A DNA stretch of 27,286 bases, taken from positions 1 through 27,286 of IMG/VR virus record IMGVR_UViG_3300045016_000278, one strand, 5' to 3'. The notes beneath the pieces were generated by a model. The model made no database searches. It saw only the letters and a program-made list of their open reading frames with translations, and was not told the DNA's origin. Positions 3,001 through 16,284 of the stretch are shown here, piece by piece. Position 1 is the stretch's first letter; each line of letters begins with the position of its first letter. The stretch comes from a virus. The translations under genes were made by a program, and so were the position numbers.

Positions 3001-3728
3001 AGGAACTCCACACCGCCTGGAGCCGGCGGCTGGGGCGGCCGCCCGAGCAGATGCCGGGCTACCAGGAAGCGCCGACCTGGGACCACGAGGAGTTCGACGG
3101 CCGGCCCCGGTGGCTGCGGTTTGACGTATCCGACGAAGACATCGCCGCCTACCAGGAGGAGGGCTACACCATCGCGCAGAGCATCAACGCCCTCTCTGGC
3201 GGCGGCCATTTGGACAACAAGATCGGACAGGGGCACCTGGAAGCCATACTGAGAAGCGACTCGCTGCTGTCTTCCTGCGAGCGAATGCGAGTCGGCATCT
3301 ACAATGCTGTCTCGCGGCAGGGCGAATCGGTGGACCGCGATGTCCCCTCCGGCGGCGCGGCCTACGTTTTCACCCGGCTGCGAAGGTGGCAAGGCCGCGG
3401 AGCCCCGCCCTTCGACCTGGAGTTCGACCTGCGGCTCTGGAGGGACTGCGACGCAATCCACTACTCCGGCGATATGTTTGGTCAGACCGTAAGGGGGGCC
3501 ACTTCGCGGCGGATAAATGGGAACTGGGAGGGGAGCGCGGGGGCCGCCAGGAGTTCGCCAGATAACGAGCTGGACTTCAAGAGCCGGGTCGGAATGCTGG
3601 CCTGGCTGCGGGCTGTTCATGTCCGCTCCAAAGAGAGCCGGGAAGCGGTGCTGGACCTCTTCCGAAAGCTCGGCATCAAGAGGGTCCGGGGCCGGCCGAT
3701 AGAAGCGCTGGTGAAGGTCGGGGGCTAG
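3..3728 (+). CDS. Mu F/SPP1 gp7-type minor head protein, intein-containing, with kinase-like domain (5' end outside window)
   Basis: The frame is open from the window edge, so the start lies upstream. The visible part has 1241 codons. The N-extein ends PPYHGS and, after removal of the intein (129-959), continues CRCTVDVEKG. This restores the C-R-C motif that ends Mu F/SPP1 gp7-like minor head domains, which sit at the portal inside the capsid. A Pro/Lys linker follows (about 1017-1166). Next is a kinase-like domain (about 1190-1800): WLFKP with a candidate nucleotide-binding Lys at 1269-1271, ENDGHAGNW (1506-1532) resembling a D-x-H-x-x-N catalytic loop, and GIDKGQAF (from 1560) as a metal-binding Asp motif, as in HipA or PI3/4-kinase-like proteins. 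A basic helical stretch lies near 1860-1970. The rest, to 3725, is unassigned; it contains a G/S-rich segment ending YVFTRL (about 3350-3380). Stop TAG is at 3726. The minor-head call is firm; the kinase fold is inferred from motifs; the tail is unknown. Confidence 0.82.
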   Translation, partial: RHRYEQAEAKAEADAKAAGKAKPDLGPYLAAQRICLPPYHGSCFAGWVPVSGAVVGALQARYRGPMIEVETREGRRFAVTPNHPVATPEGFVPAGSLQEGRQLLGYGPWPDFPPAGVPAPDQHYAPPSIEQAFDLAGQALSGVPGRVRMRPEDLHGDAERVEGEVEVVGSFRLLLDHGEPRGPEGGGEGSFPPAAASAPLHPGLGSTLPLARVRLAPPSSGPGGATLALDRFPASGPETLPLQVLRLGPAAELDARRDYEAQDRSAADAEFVGELLRRFPGQVAADEVVRVRRYEWSGHVYDLQTVGGWYVAGGIIASNCRCTVDVEKGAQVKAPGMPAKPGPPPPKPPPPKPAPPPAVPPKPPAAAKPPPAPKPAPPPPKPTPPPGAFPWAESELTAGPPKTKGAHEGYFYRAPDGSEWLFKPVPEQLAVSERVACHDLAVRLGLPGPDAYAVRLRGKPGVVQRLFPGVKGDLEGMPFEQLTESDTDTILREAAYNWLIGENDGHAGNWLRLADGRLVGIDKGQAFKFYNADKLDWDYHPNTGFHGGQYDHLLLRAYAQGQGPASIDPARLPQLAAFLDRVEALPDEEFLAILRPMAVGLHAASAGKPLPGVFGQKVGWSVDQFLEEALRRKKGLRRDFLGYLERAQKERNKALGVQVPAAATRRARQAAATVAEPGVVTPLNAEWVRKAKASGWRGRTMFLGGQDWEDMQAVGYTLEDGTFILEGKLREDGNRRLVDAILSRGIAASTSESGGALTPSEFRLQALAFAIAKHTNHHFDPASLGYDQKINLNHKANATEAWRLIRQMAKSSNPDERAAAKHYADYLGGLLHWDAEGNPTWKEKPKLASAGHKLVSWADAPQRHGLKGPPTTFRERPVNTPSRRFRPDGPPQATDEPPLEWGGKMYEGHLAPGVQLRYVPWSSPGAFAGRIELVLDKAEATPAGIEAALVKLRELGVECRLADKKDLRLLYLRKTTRAAKLEGYVGFSPKEDRPVDEQIKELHTAWSRRLGRPPEQMPGYQEAPTWDHEEFDGRPRWLRFDVSDEDIAAYQEEGYTIAQSINALSGGGHLDNKIGQGHLEAILRSDSLLSSCERMRVGIYNAVSRQGESVDRDVPSGGAAYVFTRLRRWQGRGAPPFDLEFDLRLWRDCDAIHYSGDMFGQTVRGATSRRINGNWEGSAGAARSSPDNELDFKSRVGMLAWLRAVHVRSKESREAVLDLFRKLGIKRVRGRPIEALVKVGG
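153..899 (-). CDS. Vsr/PD-(D/E)XK-like homing endonuclease encoded antisense inside the intein
   Basis: This 248-codon minus-strand gene starts at GTG (899-897) and stops at TGA (155-153). A Shine-Dalgarno GGAGG (complement of 908-912) lies 8 nt upstream. The product reads as a real protein. Residues about 12-45 form a resolvase-type helix-turn-helix (YLAGEAPQKLADELGVSRT). Residues about 110-185 fit an EDxHD/Vsr-like nuclease core: AFRAAGLSVVEQQ, then YNLD (Asp135), VAVEVFG (Glu146), His151/His153, and RLLDRGWGVVLIRCW. That last stretch is the strand-turn typical of phage Vsr-like homing endonucleases such as I-Bth0305I. The product probably cuts intein-less alleles of the minor head gene to drive homing. 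The last ~35 residues oppose the N-terminal splicing domain and may be only passively coded. Its codons are in register with the sense codons, so both proteins share almost the same 747 bases. Family membership is from motif reading only. Confidence 0.75.
   Translation of the reverse strand: MTAPFIPPDPDHLVRRYLAGEAPQKLADELGVSRTPVLRLVVAAGVQLRGRSEAEHLKWQRLRAAGREAVERQCRAAWATARGRQANPGERERAAQTRMERGACRGRWEGAFAAAFRAAGLSVVEQQAEGPYNLDLALNPLGVAVEVFGSHPHPTRDARERLARKVERLLDRGWGVVLIRCWYARGWEVRPGAVAEKLPPLLERASRDEALRGRYGVIRGDGEAAAFPRLDFDHRPTIPGLECANHGP
908..912 (-). promoter_or_regulatory. Ribosome binding site for the antisense endonuclease gene
   Basis: The complement of 908-912 reads GGAGG, 8 nt before the GTG start at 899. 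It lies within the sequence coding for the intein C-terminal splicing block (D-L-Q codons), so the site is shared by two coding constraints. It supports real translation of the minus-strand gene. Confidence 0.6.
1017..1166 (+). repeat. Proline/lysine-rich linker repeat in the minor head protein
   Basis: Imperfect repeats of CCG-CCC-AAG-type codons encode runs such as PPPPKPPPPKPAPPP and PKPAPPPPKPTPPPG. The stretch is likely an extended flexible linker between the portal-side Mu F domain and the kinase-like domain. It has no sign of being a mobile or CRISPR repeat. Confidence 0.7.
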
Positions 3729-4126: not shown

Positions 4127-4448
4127 CCTGGCCCTGTCCGAGATGCCGGGGGGCGGCCCTCCCTTCCGAGTGGTCGCAGTGCTGGCGGTGGACCCCCGCA
4201 ACGGGGAGCACGCGGTGGCAACCGAGCTGGGGGCGGACGTGGTCCGGGCCAACATCGAGACCCGAGTCATGGATGCCCGGAGAGCCGGCCGATCCCTGAC
4301 CGACCTGCTCGACTACCTGGCCTCCCAGGGCAACCGCTACTTCCGCTCCTGGGAAACCCCGGAGAGCGTCCAGGCGCCGACCGTCGAGGCGGCAGCCGAC
4401 CGGCTTCTCCTGTCCCTCCGCCCCGAGATGGAGGTCCCGCCCCTATGA
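4104..4448 (+). CDS. Hypothetical protein (114 aa)
   Basis: The ATG at 4104 was chosen because AGGAG (4092-4096) lies 7 nt upstream. Upstream codons in this frame would overlap the previous gene heavily. The product begins MPVFVASSLALSEMPG, followed by a hydrophobic strand FRVVAVLAVD and a helical C-terminal half (LTDLLDYLASQGNRYFRSW). No known family was recognised. The stop overlaps the queD start as ATGA at 4445-4448, so this gene is joined translationally to the preQ0 cassette and may be functionally tied to it. Confidence 0.65.
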   Translation: MPVFVASSLALSEMPGGGPPFRVVAVLAVDPRNGEHAVATELGADVVRANIETRVMDARRAGRSLTDLLDYLASQGNRYFRSWETPESVQAPTVEAAADRLLLSLRPEMEVPPL

Positions 4449-4855
4449 GCACCATCGTCGTCGCCTGCGAACTGGAGTTCGACGCGGCTCATCGACTGCT
4501 CGGCCACCCGGGTCGGTGCGCTTCCCTGCACGGGCACCGCTACCGGGTCGAGGTCCGGGTGGCGGGCGGACCCGGCGAGGATGGCCTGGTGCTCGACTTC
4601 TCCGACCTCAAGGGCCGGCTGCGTGGCCTGCTCGACCCTTGGGACCATGCCACCCTGCTCCAGGAGGGCGACCCCCTGCTCCCGGTCCTGCGAGCTGACC
4701 CAACCTGCCGGGTGGTCGCCTGCCCCTGGCCCCCGACTGCGGAGCGGATGGCCGAGGCTGTCCACGGGAGCCTTGCCCGCTCCCTGCCGCCGGACCTGGC
4801 CGTCGCCGCGGTGACGGTCTGGGAGACCCCGACCAGCTCTGCCACCGCGGCATGA
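4445..4855 (+). CDS. queD: 6-carboxy-5,6,7,8-tetrahydropterin synthase (QueD)
   Basis: This cytosolic enzyme converts 7,8-dihydroneopterin triphosphate, the FolE product, to 6-carboxytetrahydropterin, the second step toward preQ0. It has 136 residues, close to the usual 120-140. The zinc site is complete: His16 in FDAAH, and His29 and His31 in SLHGHRY. Cys25 (GRCASLHGH) is in the catalytic position that separates QueD from eukaryotic PTPS. DFSDLK and the DPWDHATLL segment carry the conserved Asp and His. PTAERMAE and VWETPTS supply the C-terminal substrate-binding Glu residues. Its ATG overlaps the previous stop, and its own stop overlaps the queE ATG (ATGA, 4852-4855). Confidence 0.95.
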   Translation: MSTIVVACELEFDAAHRLLGHPGRCASLHGHRYRVEVRVAGGPGEDGLVLDFSDLKGRLRGLLDPWDHATLLQEGDPLLPVLRADPTCRVVACPWPPTAERMAEAVHGSLARSLPPDLAVAAVTVWETPTSSATAA

Positions 4856-5520
4856 GCCGGGGCTACGCCGTCCACGAGGTCTTCGCCTCGCTCCAGGGCG
4901 AAGGTCTGCACACCGGCCGCCCCGCCCTGTTCGTCCGCTTCGCCGGCTGCAACCTGTGGTCCGGCCGGGAGCAGGACCGGGCCCGGGATGCCGAGCGCCA
5001 TGAGGCGGCCTGCCCAGCCTGGTGCGACACCACCTTCCGGGGGCCGCCTGGCCGCCACGGTGGCCAGCTCTCTCTGGCCGCCCTGCTCCGGGCCTGCGAG
5101 CAGGAGGCCGACGGTGTCGCCTTCGTGGTCCTGACCGGCGGCGAGCCGCTGCTCCAGGCGGACGCCGAGCTGATCGGGGCCCTGCGCCGGCGGCTGGCGC
5201 TCCCCGTCCACGTCGAGACCAATGGGACCCTGCCCCTGCCCCCGGGGGCGAACCCGGACTGGATCGCCCTCTCGCCGAAGACGCCGCCGGACCGGCTGGC
5301 CCTGCGGGTCTGCGACGAGCTGAAGGTGGTCTACCCCTCGCCGGTTCCCCCGGTGGCCTATGCCCAGGCGCTCCGGGTCCTGGCCCGGGATGCCCTGCTC
5401 GTGCAGCCGCGGGCGGGACCCGACTTGCCGGCGGCCGTCGGGGCGTGCATCCTGTACGTCCGGGAGCACCCCGGCTGGCGGCTCGGGGTGCAGGCGCACA
5501 AGGTCCTCGGCTTGCCGTGA
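4852..5520 (+). CDS. queE: 7-carboxy-7-deazaguanine synthase, radical SAM (QueE)
   Basis: QueE is a radical SAM enzyme that contracts 6-carboxytetrahydropterin to 7-carboxy-7-deazaguanine. The N-terminus VHEVFASLQGEGLHTGRPA and FVRFAGCNLW are typical. LTGGEPLLQ (SAM-binding GGE-type motif), VETNGTLPL and SPKTPP follow in order. The cluster cysteines are Cys33 (CNLWSGRE), Cys53 and Cys57 (ACPAWCDT). The CNLWSGRE form resembles the proteobacterial CX14CX2C group, but the spacing here is CX19CX3C, which is unusual. There are 222 residues. The ATG overlaps the queD stop, and the TGA overlaps the folE GTG. The function is confident; the cluster geometry is the only odd point. Confidence 0.93.
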   Translation: MSRGYAVHEVFASLQGEGLHTGRPALFVRFAGCNLWSGREQDRARDAERHEAACPAWCDTTFRGPPGRHGGQLSLAALLRACEQEADGVAFVVLTGGEPLLQADAELIGALRRRLALPVHVETNGTLPLPPGANPDWIALSPKTPPDRLALRVCDELKVVYPSPVPPVAYAQALRVLARDALLVQPRAGPDLPAAVGACILYVREHPGWRLGVQAHKVLGLP

Positions 5521-6179
5521 CCCCCTTCGACCTCGACCGAGTCCGCTCCCACCTGGAGCGGGCCACCGCGGCTCTGGCCGTCCCCGGCGACCCCGAGCAG
5601 GCGCGGGTGGCTCTGTGGCAGGAGGCAGTAGCCCTCCAGCTCGCGCTGATGGGGGAGGACCCGGGGCGGGAGGGCCTGCGGGACACCCCCGCCCGGGTGG
5701 TCCGCTACTGGCAGGAGGCCCTATCGGGCTACGCCGTCGACCCTGCCGCCATCCTGGCCCGGTCCTTCGAGGAGACCGAGGGCTACGACGAGCTGGTGCT
5801 GGTGCGGGACATCGCCTTCGACTCGACCTGCGAGCACCACCTGCTCCCGTTCCGCGGCACGGCGGCGGTCGGGTACGTCCCCTCCCAGATGCCCCAGGGC
5901 CGGGTGCTCGGGCTGTCGAAGCTGGTCCGCCTGGTCCGCTGCTACTCCGCCCGGCTTCAGCTCCAAGAGCGCATGACCCGCCAGATCGCGGCCGCCCTCT
6001 GGGAGCACCTGCGCCCGCTGGGCGTCGGGGTGGTGATCCGGGCGGCGCACGGGTGCATGGAGTGCCGGGGAGTGCGGGCGAACGGGGCCAACGCGGTGAC
6101 CTCGGCCATGATGGGGGTCTTCCGCCAGGACCCGTCTGCCCGGGCCGAGCTGCTCGCCCTCTGCGGGGCGGCCCCGTGA
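5517..6179 (+). CDS. folE: GTP cyclohydrolase I (FolE)
   Basis: FolE catalyses the first step, GTP to 7,8-dihydroneopterin triphosphate, which feeds QueD. GTG at 5517 was chosen because it overlaps the queE stop as GTGA, matching the pattern through the cassette; it gives 220 residues, the normal length. The zinc ligands are visible: Cys105 and His108 in CEHHLLPF, and Cys180 in HGCMECRGV. GLSKLVRLVRCYSARLQLQE and the GEDPGREGLRDTPARV region are classic type IA FolE motifs. A phage-borne folE makes preQ0 synthesis independent of the host GTP cyclohydrolase level. Confidence 0.95.
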   Translation: MTPFDLDRVRSHLERATAALAVPGDPEQARVALWQEAVALQLALMGEDPGREGLRDTPARVVRYWQEALSGYAVDPAAILARSFEETEGYDELVLVRDIAFDSTCEHHLLPFRGTAAVGYVPSQMPQGRVLGLSKLVRLVRCYSARLQLQERMTRQIAAALWEHLRPLGVGVVIRAAHGCMECRGVRANGANAVTSAMMGVFRQDPSARAELLALCGAAP

Positions 6180-6676
6180 CCTGGTTCTGGGCCGGCCTCT
6201 ACCTGGCTGCGGCGGTGGCCGCGAACCTGGCGGTGGCGGCCTGGGGCCCGGCCGCCACCCTCCCGGCGGCAGCCCTCTGCATCGGGTGCGACCTCACCGC
6301 CCGGGATGCCCTGCACGAGCGCTGGGAAGGGCCGGGCCTGGTCGGGCGCCTGGGCGCCCTGATTGCCGCGGGGTCTGCGCTGACCTACCTCGCCTCCCCG
6401 GCTGCGGGCCGGGTGGCCCTGGCCTCTCTCCTGGCCTTCGCCGTCTCGGCCACGGTGGACTCGCTCGCCTACGGCGCTCTGCGCCAGCACATTCCTCTGG
6501 TGCGGGTCAACGGGTCCAACCTGGCTTCGGCTCTCGCGGACTCCCTGGTCTTCCCCACGGTGGCCTTCGGTGCCCTGCTCCCCTGGGTGATCCTCGGGCA
6601 GTTCGTCGCCAAGGTGGCGGGCGGCGCCCTCTGGTCGCCCCTGGTAGTGGCCCTGCGCCGGCGGAGGGCAGCGTGA
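6176..6676 (+). CDS. VUT/YhhQ-family membrane transporter, probable preQ0/preQ1 uptake
   Basis: This is a 166-residue integral membrane protein with about five hydrophobic segments: residues about 2-24, 26-42, 55-75, 82-106 and 120-160. CDLTARDALHERW resembles the conserved polar D-L-x-x-R region after the second segment of the VUT (YhhQ/QueT-like) family, and DSLAYGAL and NLASALADSLVF match later VUT helices. Members import 7-deazaguanine bases. GTG at 6176 overlaps the folE stop (GTGA), and the stop overlaps the queC start the same way. Its position between folE and queC supports a preQ0 or preQ1 role, giving the phage a salvage route beside synthesis. The family call is good; the substrate is inferred. 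Confidence 0.82.
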   Translation: MTWFWAGLYLAAAVAANLAVAAWGPAATLPAAALCIGCDLTARDALHERWEGPGLVGRLGALIAAGSALTYLASPAAGRVALASLLAFAVSATVDSLAYGALRQHIPLVRVNGSNLASALADSLVFPTVAFGALLPWVILGQFVAKVAGGALWSPLVVALRRRRAA

Positions 6677-7365
6677 CCCCGATGCCGGCAGTGGTGCTGC
6701 TCTCCGGCGGGCAGGACTCGACCACCTGCCTGTACTGGGCCCGGGAGCGCTTCTCCCCGGTCGCGGCTCTGGCGGTCAACTACGGCCAGCGGCACGTGGC
6801 CGAGCTGTTGGCGGCCCGGGCGGTGGCCGAGCTGGCCGGCGCCTCCTTCCGCCTCCTGACCCTGGAGGCCCTGACGCAACTCGGGGGCTCGGCTCTGCTC
6901 CCGGGTGGCGGCGAGCTGCGGGAAGCGGGCGGCCTGGTCGACGCCGAGGCCCCGGCCGGGCTCCCAACCTCCTACGTCCCCGGCCGCAACCTGCTCCTGC
7001 TCGGGCTTGCCGGGGCCTACGCGGCCAGTCTGGGAGTCCGGGACCTGGTGTGTGGGGCGAGCCAGGCGGACTACTCGGGCTACCCCGACTGCCGGCGCCC
7101 GTTCATGGATGCGATGGAAGCGGCCCTGACCCTGGCCCTCCCGACCACCTGCGGCCCCCTCCGCGTCCACGCTCCCTTGATGAACTGCACGAAGGCCGAC
7201 ACGGTGCGCCTGGCCTGGGCCCTTCCCGGGTGCTGGGAGGCGCTGGCCCTGACCGTGACCTGCTACCGGGGCCTGCGGCCGGGCTGCGGCGTCTGCCCGT
7301 CCTGCCGGCTGCGGGCCCGGGGCTTCGCCGAGGCCGGTCGGCCCGACCCTGCGGCAGGGGCCTGA
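6673..7365 (+). CDS. queC: 7-cyano-7-deazaguanine (preQ0) synthase (QueC)
   Basis: QueC converts 7-carboxy-7-deazaguanine to preQ0 using ATP and ammonia. The PP-loop LLSGGQDSTTCL is at residues about 9-20. NYGQRHVAEL, VPGRNLLLL and CGASQADYSGYPDC are family motifs. The C-terminal zinc site is Cys197, Cys205, Cys208 and Cys211 (CYRG..GCGVCPSCRLRARGF). GTG at 6673 overlaps the previous stop as GTGA; an ATG at 6682 is a possible alternative with little effect. There are 230 residues, the usual size, and no Gat domain is fused. This is the last step of preQ0 synthesis. The next gene, starting 1 nt after the stop, begins with the DNA-inserting DpdA domain. Confidence 0.95.
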   Translation: MTPMPAVVLLSGGQDSTTCLYWARERFSPVAALAVNYGQRHVAELLAARAVAELAGASFRLLTLEALTQLGGSALLPGGGELREAGGLVDAEAPAGLPTSYVPGRNLLLLGLAGAYAASLGVRDLVCGASQADYSGYPDCRRPFMDAMEAALTLALPTTCGPLRVHAPLMNCTKADTVRLAWALPGCWEALALTVTCYRGLRPGCGVCPSCRLRARGFAEAGRPDPAAGA

Positions 7366-7366
7366 C

Positions 7367-10300
7367 GTGCCCAAGGTCCGCACCACCCTCTTCTACGTCA
7401 CCCTCCCCTGGGGCACGCCGCTCCTGAAGCGGATGCGCATCGAGAACGTCATGGTCAGCTTCCGCCACTTCGGGCGGAAGCTGCCAGAGTTCCCCCGGCT
7501 CATCGTCGACTCGGGGGCCTACTCGGACGCCAAGCTGCGCAAGGGCGAAGGTGAGGGGAAGGGCCGGGAGAAGGAGGACCGGAGCGGCAAGGGGTACGCC
7601 CGCTACCTCGACGAGTCGCCGGCCGAGCGGAGCGTGGTCTTCCGCGTCATGATGGACAAGATCGGGGACCAGCCGGCGACCTGCCGCCGCTTCGACCGGC
7701 ACCTGGCCAAGGGGCACTCCTGCGCCTTCGTCTACTACTCCGACGCCCGGGTGACGCCGGCGGTGGAGGCGGCCCTCAAGCGCTCCCTGACGGCCGCCGG
7801 CGCAGCGTGCTTCGCCGGCATCACCACCGGCTACCTGATCGCCCGCAAGATCGGGATGAATGAGGTCTTCCGGGGCCTGGAGCGGTGGTGGGGGGCGGTG
7901 GAGAAGGTCCTGGGCAAGGGCCCCCGTCCCCGGACCCACCTGCTCGGTTCCTTCCGCATCCCGGTGCTGTCCCGCTTCCCCTTCACCTCGGCCGACATCT
8001 CCTCGCACTTCCTGGCCAACCGCTACGGCCGCTTCTGCACCTACCTCCGGGACGAGCGGGGCCTGCGGGTCTCGGGCATTCCCCACCACCAGGCGAAGAA
8101 CGTTGAGGGCCGGCTCTCGCCGGCCATGCGTAGGCTCCAGGAGGCCAGCTACGCCTCGGCCCGCAAGCTGGGGCTCGACCTCGACGTGGAGGACGACCGC
8201 TACTGTTGGAACATCCGGGCCTACAAGCTGCTGGAGGCGGCCCTGGCCCGGGGCGACGTGGAGAAGGCCGATGCCGGGCTCCTGCTCGACACCCCGGGCC
8301 TGACCCCCTGGGCGGAGGGGGCGGTGGCGCCTCCTTCCTCGGTGGCCTACGACTTCGGCTTCTCCCCGGGGGAGCTGGCCGACCTCGGCAAGACCGAGGA
8401 CGAGCATGACGGAGAGCGGGAGGGAGCCGAGGACCCGGGGGACGAGTGGGCGGCCGACGACGAGGCCGAGGACCAGGGCGAGGACTCGGCCGAGGCGACG
8501 GCGAAGGACGCCATCACCACCGACGCCCTGGCAACTGGCGGCCGCAAGGCCCCCGAGCAGGGCGGTCCTCCGCCCCGGCGCCGCCGGCGCCGGCAGGAGG
8601 AAGAGGAGAAGGCGGCGCCCCCGACCGGAGTGCTGCCGGCGCTCAAGATGCCGGACCCGGCCTTTCTGCTCGACCGCCTGGAGGCGGGCGAGTCGGCGGG
8701 CATCCTCTCCCGCCGGGCGCAGGCGGAGCGGGTGGGCGAGCCCGAGTTCCTGGTCAACGAGGTCGCGCCGCTCGGCTTCGACCGGGCCTTCGTCTGGGCG
8801 GTGGTAAAGCACGGAGCGGCCGAGGCGGTCGCCGACCTGTCCGCGCTGGACCCGCTGCGCCGGGCCGGGGTAGACGCTCTCGCCCGCCAGGAGTTCGCCG
8901 GGGAGCGGGACTTCTTCTACCTGCCCCTGGAGCTGGTCGAGCGCTACGAGGCGCCCCTGCCCCTCAAGCGCCCGCCGGCGGGCCGGCGCTTCGGGGCCGA
9001 GGTGGACCTGGAGCGGGACGTGGCAAAGGCCGCGGTCCCTTCCCTGCCCCCCGCCGGCGACGACCCGCCCGAGGCCGAGGCAGACGACGAGGGCGAAGGT
9101 GAGGTTGGCAAGCGGGTCCGCCAGCCGTTCGGAGCGCCAGCCGGCAAGTCGGCGGTGGCCGGCCGGGTGGCCGCGGGGCTCCCCCGCCACCGGACCTACG
9201 TGGAGCCCTTCGCCGGCGGGGCCGCGGTCCTGTTCGCCAAGGCCCCTTCGTCGTCGGTGCGGGAGGTCCTGGCGGACCTGGACCCCGAGGTCGTCGGCGC
9301 CTTCTCCTTTCTCCAGCGGGCGACCTCCCGGGACCTGGACGATCTGCGGGCACGGGACTGGCGCTCGACCCCCGAACAGCTCCGGCAGGCGGTGGCCCTG
9401 CAACCCCGCTCCGACGCCGAGCGCTTCTGGCGGCTCGCGATGCGCCGGTACTCGGGCTGGCGAGCGGCGAGCGGCGGCTACAACCCCGCCCGGCAAGGGC
9501 GGGTCTCGACCTTGCCCGGCCGCCTGGAAGAGGTCCAGCGGCGCCTCGCCGGGGTGGTGCTGCGGCGCCAGGACTGGCGGGAGACCCTGCGGGAGTTCGA
9601 CGCCCCCGACTCGTTCTTCTACCTCGACCCGCCCTGGCCCTCCCGCAAGGGGGCAGCGCCCGAGGGCCTGGAGCCGGCCACTCTGGCGGCCGCTCTGGCG
9701 ACCCTCAAGGGCACCTTCCTTCTGCACTACGACCCGGCCCACGCCGACGCCTTCCGCCGGGAGGGGTGGGGGCTGCGGGAGGCCGATGGGCTTCTGGAGG
9801 TCACGAACGCCCCGGACCGGGTGGGCAAGGCCGCGGCCGAGCCCACGCCCGGGGAGCTGGCGGCGGAGTGCCGCGGACTCCTCCGCAAGCTGGCCCAGGA
9901 CGCCCCAGGACGCACGGAAGCGGTCTGCCGGCTGGGGGAGCCCGGCCCGGACGATCTCGCGGCCCTGCGGGCCGCTCCGGGCCGCCTGCAAGCCGCGGCC
10001 GAGGCGCTGGCCGCGGTGGAGCTGGTGACCCCCGAGCCCTCCCCCGGCCCGGGCGACCCGGCCGCCCGTCTGGCCGCCCTCCTTCCCCGGCTGTTCCCGG
10101 CCCTGGAGGGGGCGGACGAGCTGCACAAGGCCCTGGAGGGTGGGCATGAGGCGGCCGCCCTGCTCGCCCGCCTGGGCGGGTTCTCCGGCACTGGCGACGG
10201 TGGTAGCGCCAGGCTTTGCCCCGCGTGCCTCGCTGCCCCTGCCCCGGAGGCTACCTGCCGGGTGGTGAAGGTGCTGATCGCCGGGGTGGGCTCCGTGCCT

Positions 10301-13300
10301 CCCGAACGGCTCGACGCCGAGAGGCTGCGGGACCTCTCCGATGGCCAGCTCCGGGAGGCCGACGCTTCCCTCCACGGGCTCTACGACCGGGCCTTCGGCG
10401 AGGGCGGGAAGGGCGGCGAGAACCGGGAGGTCCTGGTCAACGCCCACCTGTTCGTGCTCGCCGAGCTGCGCCGGCGGCGCCTGGCCCACGAGGGGGACCA
10501 GGGCGACCCCCTGGACGCGGCGACTCTGGCCCTGGCGCCCGACGCCTATCGGGGGACGGCGAAGGCTGCCGGACCCGCGTCAGACCGTACCACCGCCGCA
10601 GTCTACCCCGGCGGGCAGGAGGACTTCGGGAGCGAGATCGCCCTCTCCGAAGTGCTCCCCTACGCCCAGGACATCGTGCTCCGGGCGCCGGCCGTCTACG
10701 TGGTGGGCGGCCTGGCGGTCCACGGCCGCACCCGGGGCGACCTCGACCTCCTGGTGCGGGGGCCGCTCGACGAGGCCACCCGGCGGGTGGTCGAGTTCCG
10801 CCTGGGCCGGATGCTGCCGCCCGACCTCTCCCAGCGGGTGCAGTTCCTCGACGACGAGCTGGGCGGCCCCTTCACCGACCACGTCGAGCTGTACGACCTG
10901 GTGCTGCGCCGGCGGGAGGACCTGGGGGTCAAGCGGATGCGGCTGGAGAAGGCCGACGACCCCCTGCTCGACCTGCCGCCCCGAGGGAGCCAGAAGCGGT
11001 CCTCCGCGTTGCAGTACCACTTCCGGGGCCGCTCCCTGCACGCCGACCTCCGCTTCAAGGTGGCCGACGACTACCTGGTGGGCTGGACTCTGGCCCTCCA
11101 GCGGGAGGGCCGGACCCCCGACGTGAACTCGGTCGCCGAGGCCAAGCAGATCGCGGCCACCTTCTCCCCGGAGGGGAGCCGCTACTCCAAGCCCTTCCTC
11201 GCCCCGGCCCGACTCTGGGCTACCCCCAAGGCCCGGCAGCCGGTGGCGTGGCTGAACATCGAGGCGGAGACCTTCGCCCCCGGCTCGGTCGGGGCGACCC
11301 GCTTCGAGGAAGGCACCATCGTCCTGGTCGACCGGCCCCGGGTCGAATGGGGGCTCCAGAAGCCCTACAGCCACGAGTACTTCCTGACCGGCAAGGGGCC
11401 GCTCGTCGGCATCCTCTTCTTCCGCCTGCTCGTCGGCGAAGGCGAGGGGGACGAGACGCCGGCTCGGACCCCGGAGGGCGAAGCCTTCTGGACCTGCACC
11501 CTGACCCGCAGCCTGCTCCCCGGGGTGCTCAAGCCGCGGGCGGTGGAGACCGGCGACGTGCCGCCCCAGCACTACTCCGGCCTGCCGGCGACCCTGGCCG
11601 AAGTGGTGCCGTCCTCCTTCCGCTACTGGGAGGCGGCGACGCCCCGGGAGCGGCGGGAGGTGCGGGACGCCCTGGTCGGCGAGCGGTTCTTCACCGAGGC
11701 CGGCATCCGGCTGGTCGACGGCGAGTTCCGCCGAGTGGTGCAGAAGCTCTACGTCTACACGCCCCAGGCGGCCGACCTGGCCAAGGGGCCGCCGGTGGTC
11801 GACTTCGCCCTCTCCCGCCAGACCTGGCAGGGGCAGACCGTGATCCGGGGGGTGCCCTCCCGCACCGTCTGGCACCTGGTCCTCGATGGGCCGGGCGAGG
11901 GGCTGCGGGGCTGGGAGCTGCAAGCCGACCCGCTGGAGGAAGGGGAGCGAGTCGCGGCCCTGGCCCACGACCACCCGGAGAAGGAGCTGCTGCACTTCGA
12001 GGGCGAGGTCAAGCCGGGTGCCCGAATCGGGGGCGAGGTCCTGAACCCCACCCGGGCGACGCCCTCCGACGTGGCCCTGCTCGACCGGGGCAAGGCCACC
12101 ATCCTCGACGACGTGCCCGGCCGGCTGCGGGTCCGCTTCGCCGGTCGCAAGCTGCACGGCGCCTGGACCCTGGTTCAGGAAGAGGAGCGCTCGCCGGTCT
12201 GGACCCTGGGCCGGGGCGAGCTGCCCGGTCGCCGCCAGGCCGAGAAGGAGGCCGGCGAGGGGGCAGAGGACGGCCGCGGCCGCGGCGACCTGGAGAAGCG
12301 CACCGGCAGCCGAGGCCCCTACCCGCACGACGAGTGCATGTTCCCCCGCTGCTCCAAGGCCCCCGAGGTCGAAGTGGTCTGGGCCGACGGCCGCGGCCGG
12401 GCCTGGTTCTGCAAGGAGCACCTCGCCCGCTGGCGGGACCGGGGGGAGCCCGACGGCGACCCGCCTGGCGACCGGGAGATCATCCGGGAGCGGGAGGTCG
12501 AGGGGGGCCGGGTCGGCCCCCGCTACGGGGCGCCCCCGCTGGCCAAGGCCATCCCCCTCCGAGATGGCGTCCAGGTCTGGGACCCCGACCGGCGGGACCC
12601 CGAAGCCGACCGTACCCAGCTCCGGCCCCTGGCCCTGTTCCGCCCGCAGAAGCCGGCGCCCCGGCCGACCAACGAGTTCCGCGACCCGGAGGATGCCCTG
12701 GCCTTCGCCACGCCCGCGGCCCTGCGGGACGGCATCCTGGTCGAACCCAAGTGGAACGGCTTCCGGGTAGTGGCCGAGAAGGCCGGCGGCCGAGTCCTGA
12801 TCTTCACCGAGGACACCCAGCGGGACATCTCCCCGGCCCTGCCCGGGGTCACCCGGGAGCTGGCCGGGCTGCGGGGCGACTACGTGCTCGACGCCGAGCT
12901 GATGGCCTTCGACGGCGAGAGCCCCGTTCCCCGCCGGGAGCTGGCCCGCTTCCGGGGCGAGCGGCCGACCGACGACGCCCAGGCCGCGCTCTGCGTCCAC
13001 GACGCCCTTTACCTCCCCGGGCCGGGGAACCTGACGGCGAAGACCAACGCCGAGCGGCGGGCGGCCCTGGAGGCGTACCTGCCCGCTCGGGCGAAGCACC
13101 TGCGCCTCTCCCCGGCCCGGCTGGTCCACCGGGAGGCGGCCCTGCGGGAGGCCCTGCGCTGGGCCTCCCATCTCCCCGGCTCCGAGGGGGCCATGCTCAA
13201 GCTCGCCGGCTCCACCTACAGCCTGGGCGGCGAGAACGACGGCTGGGCGAAGTTGAAGCTGGTGCGGGAGGTCCTGGCCATCGTCTACCGGCTGGAGCCG

Positions 13301-14047
13301 GTCGAGGGCTCTCCTGGCGTCCACACCCTCTACTGCGCCGTCGGCCCCATCCCCCCCGACGAGCGGGACCGCTGGCGGGAGGTGGTCGAAGTCGCCGGGA
13401 AGCTGGCCACGCCCATCGGCCGGACCTTCAACACGAAGGCGGACGTTGAGGTCGGCAGCGTGGTTCGGGTGGAGGTCACCGAGCTGCTGTCCGACCAGCG
13501 GCCGGAGGCCAAGCGGTCCCTCACCTGGTTCACCCCGACGGTGGTGGAGGGCCCGGTCGAGCGGCGGCCCATGACCCCCGCCGAGGCCGAGGCCCTTCTC
13601 CTCCCCGGCGAGGTCAAGAAGCTCCTGGCCGAGGCCGCAGTGGCGAAGGACCTGGAGGTGATCGCCAAGGCCGGCGACGGCGAGCACTACGCGCTGGGGG
13701 TGGTGCTGGAGCCGACCGACGAGGCGGCCGGGCTCAAGCCCGACGCCCAGCATGACGTGTACTCGGCCGAGGAAGTCCAGCGGGCGGCCCACTACTTCAT
13801 GGAGGCCGGCGGCCGGATCGGCTTCATGCACCGGGAGATCATCGGGGACAAGGCCCGGGTGCTGGAGACCTACCTCGCTCCGGTCACCTTCGAGCTGCCC
13901 CTTCCCGGCGGCGGAGTGCGGCGCATCCGGGAGGGAACCTGGCTGCTCGCCCTCCGGGTCCTTGACGCCGACCTCTGGCAGGCTGTAAGGTCGCGGAAGT
14001 TCGCCGGCCTGTCGGTCGGCGGCACGGCGCGCCGGGAGGCCGCTTGA
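7367..14047 (+). CDS. Giant multidomain fusion: DpdA-like transglycosylase, D12 methyltransferase, nucleotidyltransferase, LigD-PE-like, DNA ligase and XkdF prohead protease
   Basis: GTG start, 1 nt after queC; 2226 residues with no internal stop. Residues 1-335 are DpdA-like with a TGT fold: LIVDSGAYSD (Asp48), FAGITTGYL, HLLGSF and TSADISS-RYGRF (Asp210), the two catalytic-Asp regions. Residues 336-580 are an acidic/Arg linker. Residues about 585-825 are a D12 adenine methyltransferase (EPFAGG with Phe615; DPPW from Asp754). Residues about 1105-1180 are nucleotidyltransferase-like (VVGGLAVHG, Asp1125/Asp1127). Residues about 1210-1600 carry LigD 3'-phosphoesterase-like motifs (His1218, LHADLR with His1225/Asp1227/Arg1229; HDHP with His1536; FEGEV). 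A Cys1657/Cys1662/Cys1682/His1685 zinc site follows. Residues about 1780-2080 are an ATP-dependent ligase (Lys1795 in KWNGFR, LDAELM, EGAMLK, WAKLK) with an OB-like end. Residues about 2100-2226 are an XkdF-type protease (GVVLEPT, SAEEVQRAAHYFM, GFMHRE, GLSVGG). The domains are strong individually; their delivery as one protein is inferred from the open frame. Confidence 0.85.
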   Translation: MPKVRTTLFYVTLPWGTPLLKRMRIENVMVSFRHFGRKLPEFPRLIVDSGAYSDAKLRKGEGEGKGREKEDRSGKGYARYLDESPAERSVVFRVMMDKIGDQPATCRRFDRHLAKGHSCAFVYYSDARVTPAVEAALKRSLTAAGAACFAGITTGYLIARKIGMNEVFRGLERWWGAVEKVLGKGPRPRTHLLGSFRIPVLSRFPFTSADISSHFLANRYGRFCTYLRDERGLRVSGIPHHQAKNVEGRLSPAMRRLQEASYASARKLGLDLDVEDDRYCWNIRAYKLLEAALARGDVEKADAGLLLDTPGLTPWAEGAVAPPSSVAYDFGFSPGELADLGKTEDEHDGEREGAEDPGDEWAADDEAEDQGEDSAEATAKDAITTDALATGGRKAPEQGGPPPRRRRRRQEEEEKAAPPTGVLPALKMPDPAFLLDRLEAGESAGILSRRAQAERVGEPEFLVNEVAPLGFDRAFVWAVVKHGAAEAVADLSALDPLRRAGVDALARQEFAGERDFFYLPLELVERYEAPLPLKRPPAGRRFGAEVDLERDVAKAAVPSLPPAGDDPPEAEADDEGEGEVGKRVRQPFGAPAGKSAVAGRVAAGLPRHRTYVEPFAGGAAVLFAKAPSSSVREVLADLDPEVVGAFSFLQRATSRDLDDLRARDWRSTPEQLRQAVALQPRSDAERFWRLAMRRYSGWRAASGGYNPARQGRVSTLPGRLEEVQRRLAGVVLRRQDWRETLREFDAPDSFFYLDPPWPSRKGAAPEGLEPATLAAALATLKGTFLLHYDPAHADAFRREGWGLREADGLLEVTNAPDRVGKAAAEPTPGELAAECRGLLRKLAQDAPGRTEAVCRLGEPGPDDLAALRAAPGRLQAAAEALAAVELVTPEPSPGPGDPAARLAALLPRLFPALEGADELHKALEGGHEAAALLARLGGFSGTGDGGSARLCPACLAAPAPEATCRVVKVLIAGVGSVPPERLDAERLRDLSDGQLREADASLHGLYDRAFGEGGKGGENREVLVNAHLFVLAELRRRRLAHEGDQGDPLDAATLALAPDAYRGTAKAAGPASDRTTAAVYPGGQEDFGSEIALSEVLPYAQDIVLRAPAVYVVGGLAVHGRTRGDLDLLVRGPLDEATRRVVEFRLGRMLPPDLSQRVQFLDDELGGPFTDHVELYDLVLRRREDLGVKRMRLEKADDPLLDLPPRGSQKRSSALQYHFRGRSLHADLRFKVADDYLVGWTLALQREGRTPDVNSVAEAKQIAATFSPEGSRYSKPFLAPARLWATPKARQPVAWLNIEAETFAPGSVGATRFEEGTIVLVDRPRVEWGLQKPYSHEYFLTGKGPLVGILFFRLLVGEGEGDETPARTPEGEAFWTCTLTRSLLPGVLKPRAVETGDVPPQHYSGLPATLAEVVPSSFRYWEAATPRERREVRDALVGERFFTEAGIRLVDGEFRRVVQKLYVYTPQAADLAKGPPVVDFALSRQTWQGQTVIRGVPSRTVWHLVLDGPGEGLRGWELQADPLEEGERVAALAHDHPEKELLHFEGEVKPGARIGGEVLNPTRATPSDVALLDRGKATILDDVPGRLRVRFAGRKLHGAWTLVQEEERSPVWTLGRGELPGRRQAEKEAGEGAEDGRGRGDLEKRTGSRGPYPHDECMFPRCSKAPEVEVVWADGRGRAWFCKEHLARWRDRGEPDGDPPGDREIIREREVEGGRVGPRYGAPPLAKAIPLRDGVQVWDPDRRDPEADRTQLRPLALFRPQKPAPRPTNEFRDPEDALAFATPAALRDGILVEPKWNGFRVVAEKAGGRVLIFTEDTQRDISPALPGVTRELAGLRGDYVLDAELMAFDGESPVPRRELARFRGERPTDDAQAALCVHDALYLPGPGNLTAKTNAERRAALEAYLPARAKHLRLSPARLVHREAALREALRWASHLPGSEGAMLKLAGSTYSLGGENDGWAKLKLVREVLAIVYRLEPVEGSPGVHTLYCAVGPIPPDERDRWREVVEVAGKLATPIGRTFNTKADVEVGSVVRVEVTELLSDQRPEAKRSLTWFTPTVVEGPVERRPMTPAEAEALLLPGEVKKLLAEAAVAKDLEVIAKAGDGEHYALGVVLEPTDEAAGLKPDAQHDVYSAEEVQRAAHYFMEAGGRIGFMHREIIGDKARVLETYLAPVTFELPLPGGGVRRIREGTWLLALRVLDADLWQAVRSRKFAGLSVGGTARREAA

Positions 14048-15063
14048 GTGGACCTGCGAAGGACGACGACGACCTCTACCGCCTGCGGGACCTCAAGGTG
14101 GAGGAGGTCAGCATCGTCGACCGCCCGGCCAACCGCATCGAGTGGCTCATCGTCAAGCGAGACGGGGAGGACCCCATGAGCGCAGGCCCCGAGGTCCGCG
14201 AAGGCGCGGACGGGAAGCTCACGGTCGCCAAGGCCGACCCGGCCAAGCCGGAGGACGAGGCGGCGAAGGCCAAGGTTCCGCCCGAGGACGAGGCGGCGAA
14301 GGCGAAGGCTCCGAAGCCCGAGGACGCCGAGAAGGCCGGCGGCCGGCTGGAGGCCGGTGCCCGGGAGGCGGCCGAGCGGCTGCTCTCCCTGGCCAACCAG
14401 GCCAAGGGCAAGGCCCCCGACGCGGCGATGCTCCGGGAGCTGAAGGCGGTCTCGGGCCTGCTCACCGGGCTCGCCGACAAGTACCCCTCGCCGAAGGCCG
14501 GCGTGGCGAAGGCGGAGGCCGACCTGATCGCCGAGGGTCGGACCTTCGACGGGGTGCTGCACACCGCGGCCCAGGCCATCCTCGGCGGGTCCCGGGAGCA
14601 GGCGGCCGCGGCGGTCGCCGGCGTCCGGGCCGCCATCGACTACGCGGTCGGGAAGGCCGCGAAGGTCGAGGACGAGGAGCCGGAGGACGAGGCGAAGGCG
14701 AAGGCCGCGAAGCCGAAGGACCTCCCCGGGGCCGGCAAGCGGTTCACCGCCGAGCGGGTCGGCAAGCTGACCTCGGCGCTCGGCTCGCTGCTCGACGTGC
14801 TCAAGGACCTGGGCGTCACCAACCTCCCCGCCCTGCTCAACGTGGCGAAGAGCGACGGCACGGCGGAGGGCGAGGTGATCGCCAAGGCCCTGTCCGCGGT
14901 GGGCGTCGACGCCGAGGCGGCCCGGGCCGCCGAGGCCGACGGCAAGCTCGCCGACCTCCAGAAGCGGCTCGACCGCCTGGAGACGGCGGGCCTGGCGAAG
15001 GGCCTGGGCGGCGACGCGGTCGCCAAGGCCGTGAAGCCGGACCTCTGGAAGGGGATCGTCTAG
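14044..15063 (+). CDS. Capsid scaffolding / prohead core protein
   Basis: TTG at 14044 overlaps the stop of the protease-ending gene (TTGA). An internal ATG at 14176 would lose the conserved beginning. The first ~40 residues read DLKVEEVSIVDRPANRIEWL, a segment common at the start of scaffold or protease-scaffold proteins beside XkdF-type proteases. The rest is highly charged, Ala/Lys/Glu-rich and helical, with acidic repeats (PEDEAAKAK) at about residues 75-100 and 215-230 and a coiled-coil-like end (KLADLQKRLDRLE). There are 339 residues. Its place between protease and major capsid is the classic scaffold slot, so it is probably degraded by the fused protease during maturation. Assignment is by position and composition. 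Confidence 0.78.
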   Translation: MSGPAKDDDDLYRLRDLKVEEVSIVDRPANRIEWLIVKRDGEDPMSAGPEVREGADGKLTVAKADPAKPEDEAAKAKVPPEDEAAKAKAPKPEDAEKAGGRLEAGAREAAERLLSLANQAKGKAPDAAMLRELKAVSGLLTGLADKYPSPKAGVAKAEADLIAEGRTFDGVLHTAAQAILGGSREQAAAAVAGVRAAIDYAVGKAAKVEDEEPEDEAKAKAAKPKDLPGAGKRFTAERVGKLTSALGSLLDVLKDLGVTNLPALLNVAKSDGTAEGEVIAKALSAVGVDAEAARAAEADGKLADLQKRLDRLETAGLAKGLGGDAVAKAVKPDLWKGIV

Positions 15064-15083
15064 CGCCGCCGAGCGGCGCCCGT

Positions 15084-15089
15084 GGAGGG
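15084..15089 (+). promoter_or_regulatory. Ribosome binding site of the major capsid gene
   Basis: GGAGGG, 7 nt before GTG at 15097. It decides the start: an upstream in-frame GTG at 15082 overlaps this site and has no site of its own. Confidence 0.65.
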
Positions 15090-15096
15090 CTGCACC

Positions 15097-16284
15097 GTGA
15101 CCAACGAAGAGCTGCTTCGCAAGGCCGTCATCACCACGGACGCCCTGGCGGCGGCCGGCAAGCTGAACCCCGAGCAGGCGGACAAGTTCATCGACTTCGT
15201 CCTGGACGAGACCGCCCTCAAGGGTTCGGTCAGGACCATCAGGGTCAAGACCGACTGGGAGATCAACAAGATCGGGGTCGGCGCCCGGGTCGCGATGCCC
15301 GCGGCCGAGGCCAAGGACCCCGGCCTCCGGCGCGGCATCACCACCTCCAAGGTGACGCTCAACGCCAAGGAGGTGATCGTCCCGTTCGAGATCGGGGACT
15401 CCTTCCTGGAGGAGAACATCGAGGGCGAGCCGAGCGCCGAGCACATCGTCCGCCTCATGGCGACGAAGGCGGCGAACGAGCTGGAGGAGCTGGGAATCCT
15501 GGGCGACGCCCTGGGCGTGGCGGCCCTGGAGTCCGACCTCATCGAGGGCGGCGACGCGGTCCGGCACGTCCGGGACTCCTACCTCGCCCTCTTCGACGGG
15601 TACGCCCGGCTCGCCGACGGCGGCAGCATCTTCAACGCCGCCGGGGCCAACATCGGGCTCTCGATCTTCGGCGGCATGCTCCGGGCCATGCCGACCAAGT
15701 TCCGCAAGGACCCCCGGCGCCTGCGCTACCTGGTGAGCCCCGACCTGGAGCAGCTCTGGCGGGAGCGGGTCAGCACCCGCGGCACCGCCCTGGGCGACCA
15801 GGCGGTGCAGGGCGACTCCCGGATCAAGGCGTTCGGGGTCGAGATGGTGCCCCTGCCGCTGCTCCCCTTCCGGCCCCGGGTGGTCGAGCACGTGGTCCTG
15901 AACGGTCTGGTCGCCGCCACCCTGCGGTACCAGAACCTCGCGAACGCCGTCGTCCACCTGGCGACCCTGGGGAACGTCCCGACCGCCCCCTACACCGCCG
16001 GCGTCGACTACACCCTCGACGCGGCGGCGGGGACCATCGTCCGCATCGGCGGCGGCGGCATCGCCGACGGGGCGACGGTCAAGGTCACCTACGACTCGCC
16101 CCCCATCGCCATCCTGACCCACTTCGAGAACCTGCTCCTGGCCATCGGGCGGGACATCCGCATCGAGAAGGACCGGGACATCTTCCGGCGGGTCAACCAG
16201 TACGCCATCACCATCAAGGTCGGGGTCGGGGTCGAGGAGGCGGCGGCCATCGTGAAGGCCCGCAACCTCGGCACCGGCATCTAG
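15097..16284 (+). CDS. Major capsid protein (HK97-fold type)
   Basis: There are 395 residues from GTG at 15097. It begins TNEELLRKAVITTDALAAAG and continues KLNPEQADKFIDFV, an N-terminal segment found in a family of large-phage capsid proteins. FEIGDSFLEENIEGE, an E-loop-like region, follows, then a helix rich in Met/Ala/Glu (RLMATKAANELEELGILGD) as in the HK97 spine helix. LRYLVSPDLEQLWRERVSTRG is typical of the A-domain. Near residues 295-330, YTAGVDYTLDAAAGTIVRI reads as a beta-rich insertion. Gene order (protease, scaffold, then this) and the strong ribosome site support the call. Capsid assignment is from order and motif feel, not from a search. Confidence 0.85.
   Translation: MTNEELLRKAVITTDALAAAGKLNPEQADKFIDFVLDETALKGSVRTIRVKTDWEINKIGVGARVAMPAAEAKDPGLRRGITTSKVTLNAKEVIVPFEIGDSFLEENIEGEPSAEHIVRLMATKAANELEELGILGDALGVAALESDLIEGGDAVRHVRDSYLALFDGYARLADGGSIFNAAGANIGLSIFGGMLRAMPTKFRKDPRRLRYLVSPDLEQLWRERVSTRGTALGDQAVQGDSRIKAFGVEMVPLPLLPFRPRVVEHVVLNGLVAATLRYQNLANAVVHLATLGNVPTAPYTAGVDYTLDAAAGTIVRIGGGGIADGATVKVTYDSPPIAILTHFENLLLAIGRDIRIEKDRDIFRRVNQYAITIKVGVGVEEAAAIVKARNLGTGI

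Follow-up and report, generated by a model that had tools for sequence, protein, structure and literature searches.

A phage protein joining LigD-type phosphoesterase, DNA ligase and DNA modification domains to an XkdF-type head protease, and its relatives in uncultured viruses

Polyvalent proteins (Iyer et al. 2017, PMC5512222) are polypeptides of phages and conjugative elements described as joining disparate enzymes, including DNA methylases and nucleotidyltransferases (NTases), in a single chain. A peptidase domain is common, not universal, among them according to the same paper, whose section 8 gives assemblin-like peptidases, where present, as always C-terminal. Here we describe a protein of comparable build, 2226 aa long, that is encoded at positions 7367-14047 of IMG/VR virus record IMGVR_UViG_3300045016_000278 (positions 1 to 27,286, the whole stretch analyzed in this study, hereafter the window). 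It likewise combines unrelated predicted activities and ends in an XkdF-type head maturation protease domain at residues 2097-2224, and on its predicted domains it thus shows the testable features of the polyvalent class (unrelated activities, C-terminal peptidase). Unlike in those polyvalent proteins, the core consists here of LigD-type 3'-phosphoesterase (PE) and DNA ligase domains; the main text of PMC5512222 contains none of the terms ‘deazaguanine’, ‘queuine’ and ‘LigD’, and its three uses of ‘ligase’ refer to RNA ligase.

Bacterial LigD shares with the window protein the PE fold and an ATP-dependent DNA ligase in one chain, while the window protein differs in having two PE domains, a small Pol-beta-type NTase and a fusion to a head protease. 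The LigD polymerase (AEP) gave no Pfam or NCBIfam match at E <= 1, the LigD-named NCBIfam matches cover ligase or PE parts only, and Ku was not found in 10 records, most of them possibly fragments. Judged from these scans, the protein is not a LigD. The ‘ATP-dependent DNA ligase’ of ANMV-1 (AJP62006.1; KP703175) also combines an NTase, a ligase and two PE domains but, unlike the window protein, no D12 methyltransferase, DpdA or protease was found in it. Single-enzyme fusions to XkdF are already known from the PHROGs: phrog_13242 (D12 and XkdF) and phrog_14859 (an RNA ligase by its label, with a Lactococcus phage XkdF protease matching its last third) likewise place an enzyme domain before the XkdF protease. 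They carry one enzyme only, and the PE, NTase and DpdA segments of the window gave no match to these two families. Finally, phage DpdA proteins of the 7-deazaguanine modification systems likewise occur with QueD, QueE, QueC and YhhQ genes, with DpdA being a separate gene in the account of PMC6884629, whereas here it is a domain of a head-protease polyprotein. Fusions of the PE-ligase-XkdF or DpdA-protease type were described in none of the titles or abstract openings among the literature matches listed (the best 15 of 1,301 in one case), a partial coverage that makes this weak evidence of absence. Two features appear to be new, at least to us: a conserved PE-PE-ligase(-NTase) core linked with head genes across many uncultured viruses, and the occurrence of DpdA as one module of a fusion protein.

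The gene and its domains are organized as follows.

7367..14047, + strand: 2226-aa multi-enzyme protein with C-terminal head protease (single coding frame)
7487..8269, + strand: DpdA (DNA guanine transglycosylase) domain, residues 41-301 (hhalign, motif residues, neighbourhood)
8624..9001, + strand: conserved domain, function unassigned, residues ~420-545 (45% identity to relative L013, E 9e-28)
9122..9733, + strand: D12 class N6-adenine methyltransferase domain, residues 586-789 (PF02086 4.4e-7, phrog_56 3.9e-24, phrog_13242 3.5e-28)
10628..10912, + strand: small Pol-beta superfamily NTase domain, residues 1088-1182 (profile and model)
10994..11506, + strand: PE-A, LigD-type PE fold, residues 1210-1380 (fold and metal-site residues)
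11795..12220, + strand: PE-B, second LigD-type PE fold, residues 1477-1618 (fold and profile; metal-binding histidines lacking)
12323..12415, + strand: Cys-rich patch, possible zinc site, residues 1653-1683 (read from the sequence; 43% identity to relative L027)
12713..13546, + strand: ATP-dependent DNA ligase domain, residues 1783-2060 (PF01068 2.5e-17)
13655..14038, + strand: XkdF-type head maturation protease domain, residues 2097-2224 (PF14550 5.5e-18, phrog_3017 2.3e-21)

The gene starts with a GTG one base past the stop codon of queC, and its TGA stop codon shares bases with the TTG at which a scaffold-like gene (14044-15063) begins, in agreement with the initial annotation, which had been made from the letters of the window and had proposed one uninterrupted frame of 2226 residues. 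Frame length was discarded as coding evidence since long open frames are common at the GC content of the window (~73%): the longest stop-free stretch in 100 base-shuffled windows has a median of 454 (maximum 875), and actual antisense stop-free stretches in the window reach 1170. We nevertheless regard 7367-14047 as one coding frame because its GC3 is of coding type throughout (0.85-1.00 in each 300-base step), domain matches are spread in frame along its full length, and IMG/VR records 3300045117_000395 and 3300024333_000005 encode the protein with 100% identity (DNA 100% identical over 23,085 bases each). An assembly error specific to the window, a refuting case named in the initial annotation, is unlikely given this identity in two other records, which may not come from independent samples. 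All six domain types it had named are present by profiles, hhalign and folds, with the correction that there are two PE domains instead of one. Residues ~800-985 carry no domain assignment.

The phosphoesterase identity of both PE domains is confirmed by profiles together with predicted folds. The Pfam LigD_N match for this region is weak (E 0.11) and NCBIfam TIGR02777 matches the PE-B region at 1.7e-4, below its cut-off, but a PE profile built from 17 relatives gave four PDB matches up to E 1, all to LigD-type PE (best 6.6e-7; PDB entries were recognized as PE from their titles). In a model of residues 1200-1640 (pLDDT 83.7), the best six Foldseek rows and the best six VIA entries are LigD-type PE, with PE-B aligning to 3p43 at Z 16.8 and an rmsd of 2.1 over 120. 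PE-A is inconspicuous in this model and stood out when modelled together with the NTase (residues 985-1400, pLDDT 79.2): 3p43 is its sole Foldseek match at E <= 0.001 (6.2e-7), it aligns to 3p4h at Z 14.3 and an rmsd of 2.0 over 116, and its best six VIA entries are PE structures. The PE-A sequence alone has a single PDB match up to E 10, a LigD-type PE (E 0.23). As the PE-B profile also matches PE-A, we consider the two domains a tandem pair. The LigD-phosphoesterase assignment, initially a guess, is thus upheld by profile and fold (Z 14-17) and doubled. PE-A residues H1218 (24/25), H1225 (25/25), D1227 (25/25) and R1229 (24/25) are conserved and align with LigD His42, His48, Asp50 and Arg52, which are described as essential or anion-binding (PMC8656161).

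The NTase retains D1125 (21/22) and D1127 (22/22), and 58 among the best 60 of its 67 PDB profile matches are Pol beta, Pol X or terminal deoxynucleotidyltransferase, the best E-value of 0.0058 being weak. The ligase is better defined, with a PF01068 match spanning residues 1788-1964, DNA ligases in 41/41 PDB profile matches, and conserved residues K1795 (22/22), E1940 (21/21), G1941 (22/22) and K1962 (21/21), which we take to represent the lysine nucleophile and further ligase motifs.

In the XkdF domain, H2155 (14/14) and S2216 (15/15) are conserved. PF14550 and PF04586 match the same genes in the records of five relatives, and XkdF is held to be unrelated to the SH prohead peptidases (PMC7824862). 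In a separate observation on XkdF genes, a 178-aa XkdF-only protease of Pseudomonas phage EM (L055, 2381-2914) has phrog_1530 ‘DNA methyltransferase’ as its best PHROG. Two XkdF proteases of named phages that were examined have no methyltransferase match of their own, which bears on a reading of phrog_1530 as a fusion, and similar methyltransferase labels on XkdF genes of other phages may have been carried over from fusions.

The DpdA segment gave no useful match to Pfam, NCBIfam, PADLOC or PDB sequences. In hhalign it matched a profile of four phage proteins that carry queuine/queuosine tRNA-ribosyltransferase annotations, one being noted as DpdA, with a probability of 97.0 and an E-value of 1e-10; these four were chosen among weak tblastn matches of the same segment, so that the profile is not wholly independent. 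Window segments used as controls against this profile remained at probabilities of 0.3 (ligase), 0.2 (capsid) and 0.9 (PE). The weak tblastn records (E 0.02-4) are annotated as queuine/queuosine or tRNA ribosyltransferases in 12 out of 14 cases, the match to phrog_887 has an E-value of 4.8e-6, and D48, G50, D97, H191 and D210 are invariant in 13/13 aligned sequences. We accepted the DpdA identity on the hhalign, motif and neighbourhood evidence combined: a predicted domain resembling tRNA-guanine transglycosylases, with the conserved aspartates, is present. No second copy of DpdA (phrog_887) or of the ligase (PF01068) was detected in the two longer records. The D12 domain has its PF02086 match at residues 593-760, with the DPP motif at residues 754-756, the S-adenosylmethionine motif and the DPPW/Y feature, and its motif residues are conserved in 13/13 sequences. 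For the domain at residues 420-545, a provisional ASCH/PUA label was dropped, as an ASCH-like seed from relative L018 gave no match in the window.

Relatives were collected by viral scans in which the whole protein gave 6 viral loci, the PE region 20 and the NTase 7, alongside a single contig from an Archaeoglobales metagenome-assembled genome (MAG), and by a scan with PE-A, from which 80 of 81 loci were kept. After pooling, removal of repeats and addition of ANMV-1, 88 loci were mapped with profiles (left out as contig repeats or identical regions: L003, L009, L010, L016, L017, L029-L031, L037, L038, L057-L060 and 11 PE-A-scan loci). A usable PE-A is present in 84/88 loci, which form 67 clusters at 90% identity; L005, L006, L007 and L035 have none and were omitted from clustering. 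The architecture, for which a search had been proposed initially, is thus not unique, its parts recurring elsewhere in shuffled order. The ligase is found in 62/67 clusters. Where 5' context is available (49 clusters), the ligase and the NTase are each present in 46, the NTase tally being slightly selected by the entry of L032, L033 and L034 via the NTase scan. Of the clusters for which 3' context is available (63), 19 have the PE frame fused to an XkdF-type protease, in line with the initial expectation that ligase/PE-XkdF fusions may occur in environmental phages, and 14 others have the protease in a separate frame starting within ~0.7 kb of the PE frame end. This recurrence of the protease was not selected for, since no locus-gathering search pattern lay in it.

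DpdA is fused in 5/67 clusters (the window, L018, L077/L078, L091 and L118), separate and nearby in L013, L032 and L035, and encoded upstream in the L027 record; profile calls match their own seeds by construction, those of DpdA being the window, L018, L013 and L032. A viral scan with the DpdA segment alone found nothing beyond the two identical records. The addition of DpdA and a methyltransferase to such fusions had been thought new. This did not hold for the single domains, since D12 is present in various relatives and a few clusters besides that of the window have DpdA fused, but their combination stands, as no other frame among the 88 mapped loci has both. In L018, queC, yhhQ, queD and queE lie upstream of the DpdA-fused frame and are 36-51% identical to those of the window.

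The domain order is shuffled between relatives, from NTase-PE-PE-ligase-XkdF (L011, L012, L061, L063) to C5 methylase-ligase-PE-PE-XkdF (L004, L098), and other relatives carry metallo-beta-lactamase, 2H or AAA domains. Uracil-DNA glycosylase (UDG) or NUDIX domains are found in L005-L007, three loci truncated ahead of any PE. Because of this shuffling we regard PE and ligase as the stable unit and DpdA and the methylases as cargo. In L028, L032, L075 and L121 the enzymes lie at the same place as separate genes or in several frames. Capsid homologues are located downstream in L004, L011-L015 and L023, and portal, head-morphogenesis, protease or major head PHROGs beside the core in L020, L024, L028, L032 and L033, while the tested neighbour of L027 gave no PHROG match.

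Some further observations concern single relatives. D12 lies between PE-A and PE-B in L013, L083, L093, L094, L097 and L104; as read from these frames, the PE pair tolerates an entire enzyme between its halves. Intein/LAGLIDADG-like inserts occur in L007 (ORF 8219-11086), L020 (ORF 4959-9923) and the PE frames of L022 and L036, where, depending on the relative, they split the N-terminal region, the ligase or PE-A. In L024 (11461-14067) and L025 (11462-14074), the gene that follows the core matches the protease-capsid families phrog_4523 and phrog_133 and is possibly a protease fused to a major capsid protein. The Archaeoglobales MAG contig (L036; QMZE01000003.1) clusters at 90% PE-A identity with the viral loci L019-L022 and L026, which makes it a possible provirus or a host hint. 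This contig and the ANMV-1 record are two relatives that point to archaea. In ANMV-1 (L008), the gene at 1913-3193, annotated ‘MutT-like phage hydrolase’, adjoins AJP62006.1 and looks like a portal gene from its length and place.

The neighbouring genes in the window are the following.

4445..4855, + strand: queD (PF01242 5.5e-29)
4852..5520, + strand: queE (TIGR04508 3.3e-57, below its cut-off; phrog_2076 3e-23)
5360..6676, + strand: frame with a YhhQ-type preQ0 transporter in its C-terminal third (PF02592 1.1e-12, phrog_4899 8.3e-32)
6286..7365, + strand: frame containing queC (PF06508 8.5e-62)
14044..15063, + strand: scaffold-like gene overlapping the polyprotein gene end (position, composition; phrog_13975 2.5e-8; N-terminus phrog_3017 2.9e-6)
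15082..16284, + strand: capsid / virion structural protein (phrog_1623 2.1e-67)

The four upstream genes are members of the preQ0 supply set as described in PMC6884629, and a head protein (phrog_15127) is encoded upstream of them. The polyprotein gene ends with the protease and is followed by the scaffold-like gene and the capsid-type gene, and hence occupies the usual protease slot, as the initial annotation had it. The stretch 5521-6188, between queE and the transporter match, has no assignment. In the head-protein frame (3-3728), a CRC motif is split by an in-frame insert of 831 bases (277 aa; window 129-959) with intein-like ends (Cys first, Asn before Cys) and a weak Pfam intein match (E 0.0074). 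The insert is missing from the otherwise identical 3300045117_000395, and 3300024333_000005 starts directly after it.

What was computed directly (the single frame, the domain identities, the motif residues, the genome position and the recurrence with shuffled order) leads us to a reading that we consider evenly balanced between right and wrong: a late head-morphogenesis polyprotein of the polyvalent kind that would be packaged into the prohead and cut by its own protease, its enzymes then healing, sealing and modifying phage DNA. Late expression, cutting of its own linkers by the protease, packaging, enzyme activity and time of action are the parts that we infer. The C-terminal XkdF domain would act as head maturation protease, the precursor would enter the prohead together with the scaffold, and the protease would cut the linkers during head maturation and release the enzymes. 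The conserved core of the PE pair and ATP-dependent DNA ligase, usually with the small NTase, would form a LigD-like ‘heal and seal’ module, in which PE-A may clean 3' ends, PE-B probably assists DNA binding and the ligase may close nicks or ends. As the PE pair and the ligase are the stable unit, healing and sealing of DNA ends or nicks should be the central function. Circularization of mycobacteriophage genomes by Ku and host LigD is a functional parallel. DpdA, supplied by the adjoining queD-queE-yhhQ-queC genes, would swap guanine for preQ0 in DNA and D12 would methylate adenine, so that both DpdA and the methylases may be cargo that shields the DNA from restriction. Once freed, the enzymes could work on the genome in its packaged state or as it enters the next cell, closing nicks or ends and completing the protective modification. 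Packaging and delivery along with the DNA is a further feature of the polyvalent class, and for the window protein the genome position is the observation that bears on it. Both fates of such a protein have precedents in section 8 of PMC5512222: P1 DdrB is processed before packaging and the N4 virion polymerase is packaged whole.

The linkers between the domains, rich in charged and small residues, contain a candidate cleavage motif of exploratory standing. The pattern [VILT]AK[AGS], picked post hoc after viewing these sequences, occurs at six sites in the polyprotein (shuffle mean 0.60), of which five lie in linkers at domain boundaries (554, 1066, 1473, 1727 and 2101) and one within DpdA (115); at least five out of six sites in linkers have a chance of ~0.016 (binomial, linker fraction 0.33). 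The scaffold-like protein also has six sites (shuffle mean 0.56), compared to one in 14 other window frames. A K[AS] dipeptide with a nearby P is found 10 times in the window versus 3.5 (2/500 shuffles), with mixed results in relatives.

Several observations weigh against the packaged, self-cleaved polyprotein. Besides the post hoc choice of the motif, the other XkdF-fused relatives give a weak signal for it (18 sites versus 8.4 expected, with 10 of the 18 in linkers, whose fraction is 0.37), and an enrichment of KA dipeptides in linkers was rejected as not significant (Fisher p 0.24). The PE + ligase core often occurs without a recognized protease: the XkdF-type profile recognizes none in 30/63 clusters, and in 12 of these 30 the next genes compared with PHROGs gave a clear head protease in L024 and L025, a weak one in L123 and none in nine. 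ANMV-1 has no protease by PF14550 or PF04586. Within the PE pair, PE-B is without the metal-binding histidines in the profile alignment, and the conserved H1336-E-Y1338 of PE-A (21/22) apparently lies at another chain position than LigD His84/Tyr88. The NTase model resembles minimal MNT-type NTases (best Z 5.4) and not clearly a polymerase. Lastly, a core without Ku (0/10 records) is not complete bacterial non-homologous end joining.

A somewhat unlikely but serious alternative is that the fusion is an expression device, by which the enzymes are made along with the head genes, freed in the cytoplasm and put to work before packaging, when they would modify replicating or concatemeric DNA and close nicks that could otherwise stall the terminase, while staying unpackaged themselves. 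The four relatives with the same enzymes unfused at the same place agree with this, as the linkage to the head operon is kept there and the fusion is not. Action of DpdA in the infected cell is, in our reading, also the ordinary view of phage base modification; the account in PMC6884629 tells what DpdA inserts, not when. What expression alone can hardly account for is the recurrent enzyme-protease fusion (19/63 clusters), because enzymes of phage replication and repair are as a rule encoded by early genes. We consider it improbable that the domains are injected conflict effectors, with the NTase modifying host proteins or nucleotides, PE and ligase acting on host nucleic acids or reversing host-nuclease damage, and DpdA and D12 evading restriction. 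Polyvalent proteins are so interpreted in PMC5512222, the NTase weakly resembles MNT-type domains, and the accessory domains vary widely (C5 methylase, 2H, metallo-beta-lactamase, UDG, NUDIX, AAA), like arms-race cargo; against this, the least variable part is the DNA-repair pair of PE and ligase (62/67 clusters) and the ligase is of the DNA type by all its PDB matches. That several proteins arise from internal starts in the one frame, or that the fusion is not translated whole, is very improbable, since the 91 in-frame start codons, four of them GTG preceded by GGAGG or GAGGT in a raw count and as such a point against a single polyprotein, are set against an unbroken coding signature, identity in three records and fusions in sequence-divergent relatives too.

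Returning to the packaged polyprotein, we extend it tentatively, and with clearly less than even confidence, to a widespread and so far undescribed class of tailed viruses infecting bacteria and archaea that would bring a LigD-like healing and ligation machine into the prohead by fusion or coupling to the protease, a subset loading DpdA likewise, so that repair and modification could take place inside the capsid or immediately upon entry, with no need for newly made protein. If true, this would explain why many uncultured viruses have DNA-end enzymes in their head operon, assign a concrete role to a class of polyvalent proteins and make a compact PE-ligase enzyme available for biochemistry. 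The analysis suggests that, in some phages, a kit for DNA repair and modification is incorporated in the head during its assembly; if the reading holds, the kit would be chosen module by module, carried packed in the head and released by the head protease.

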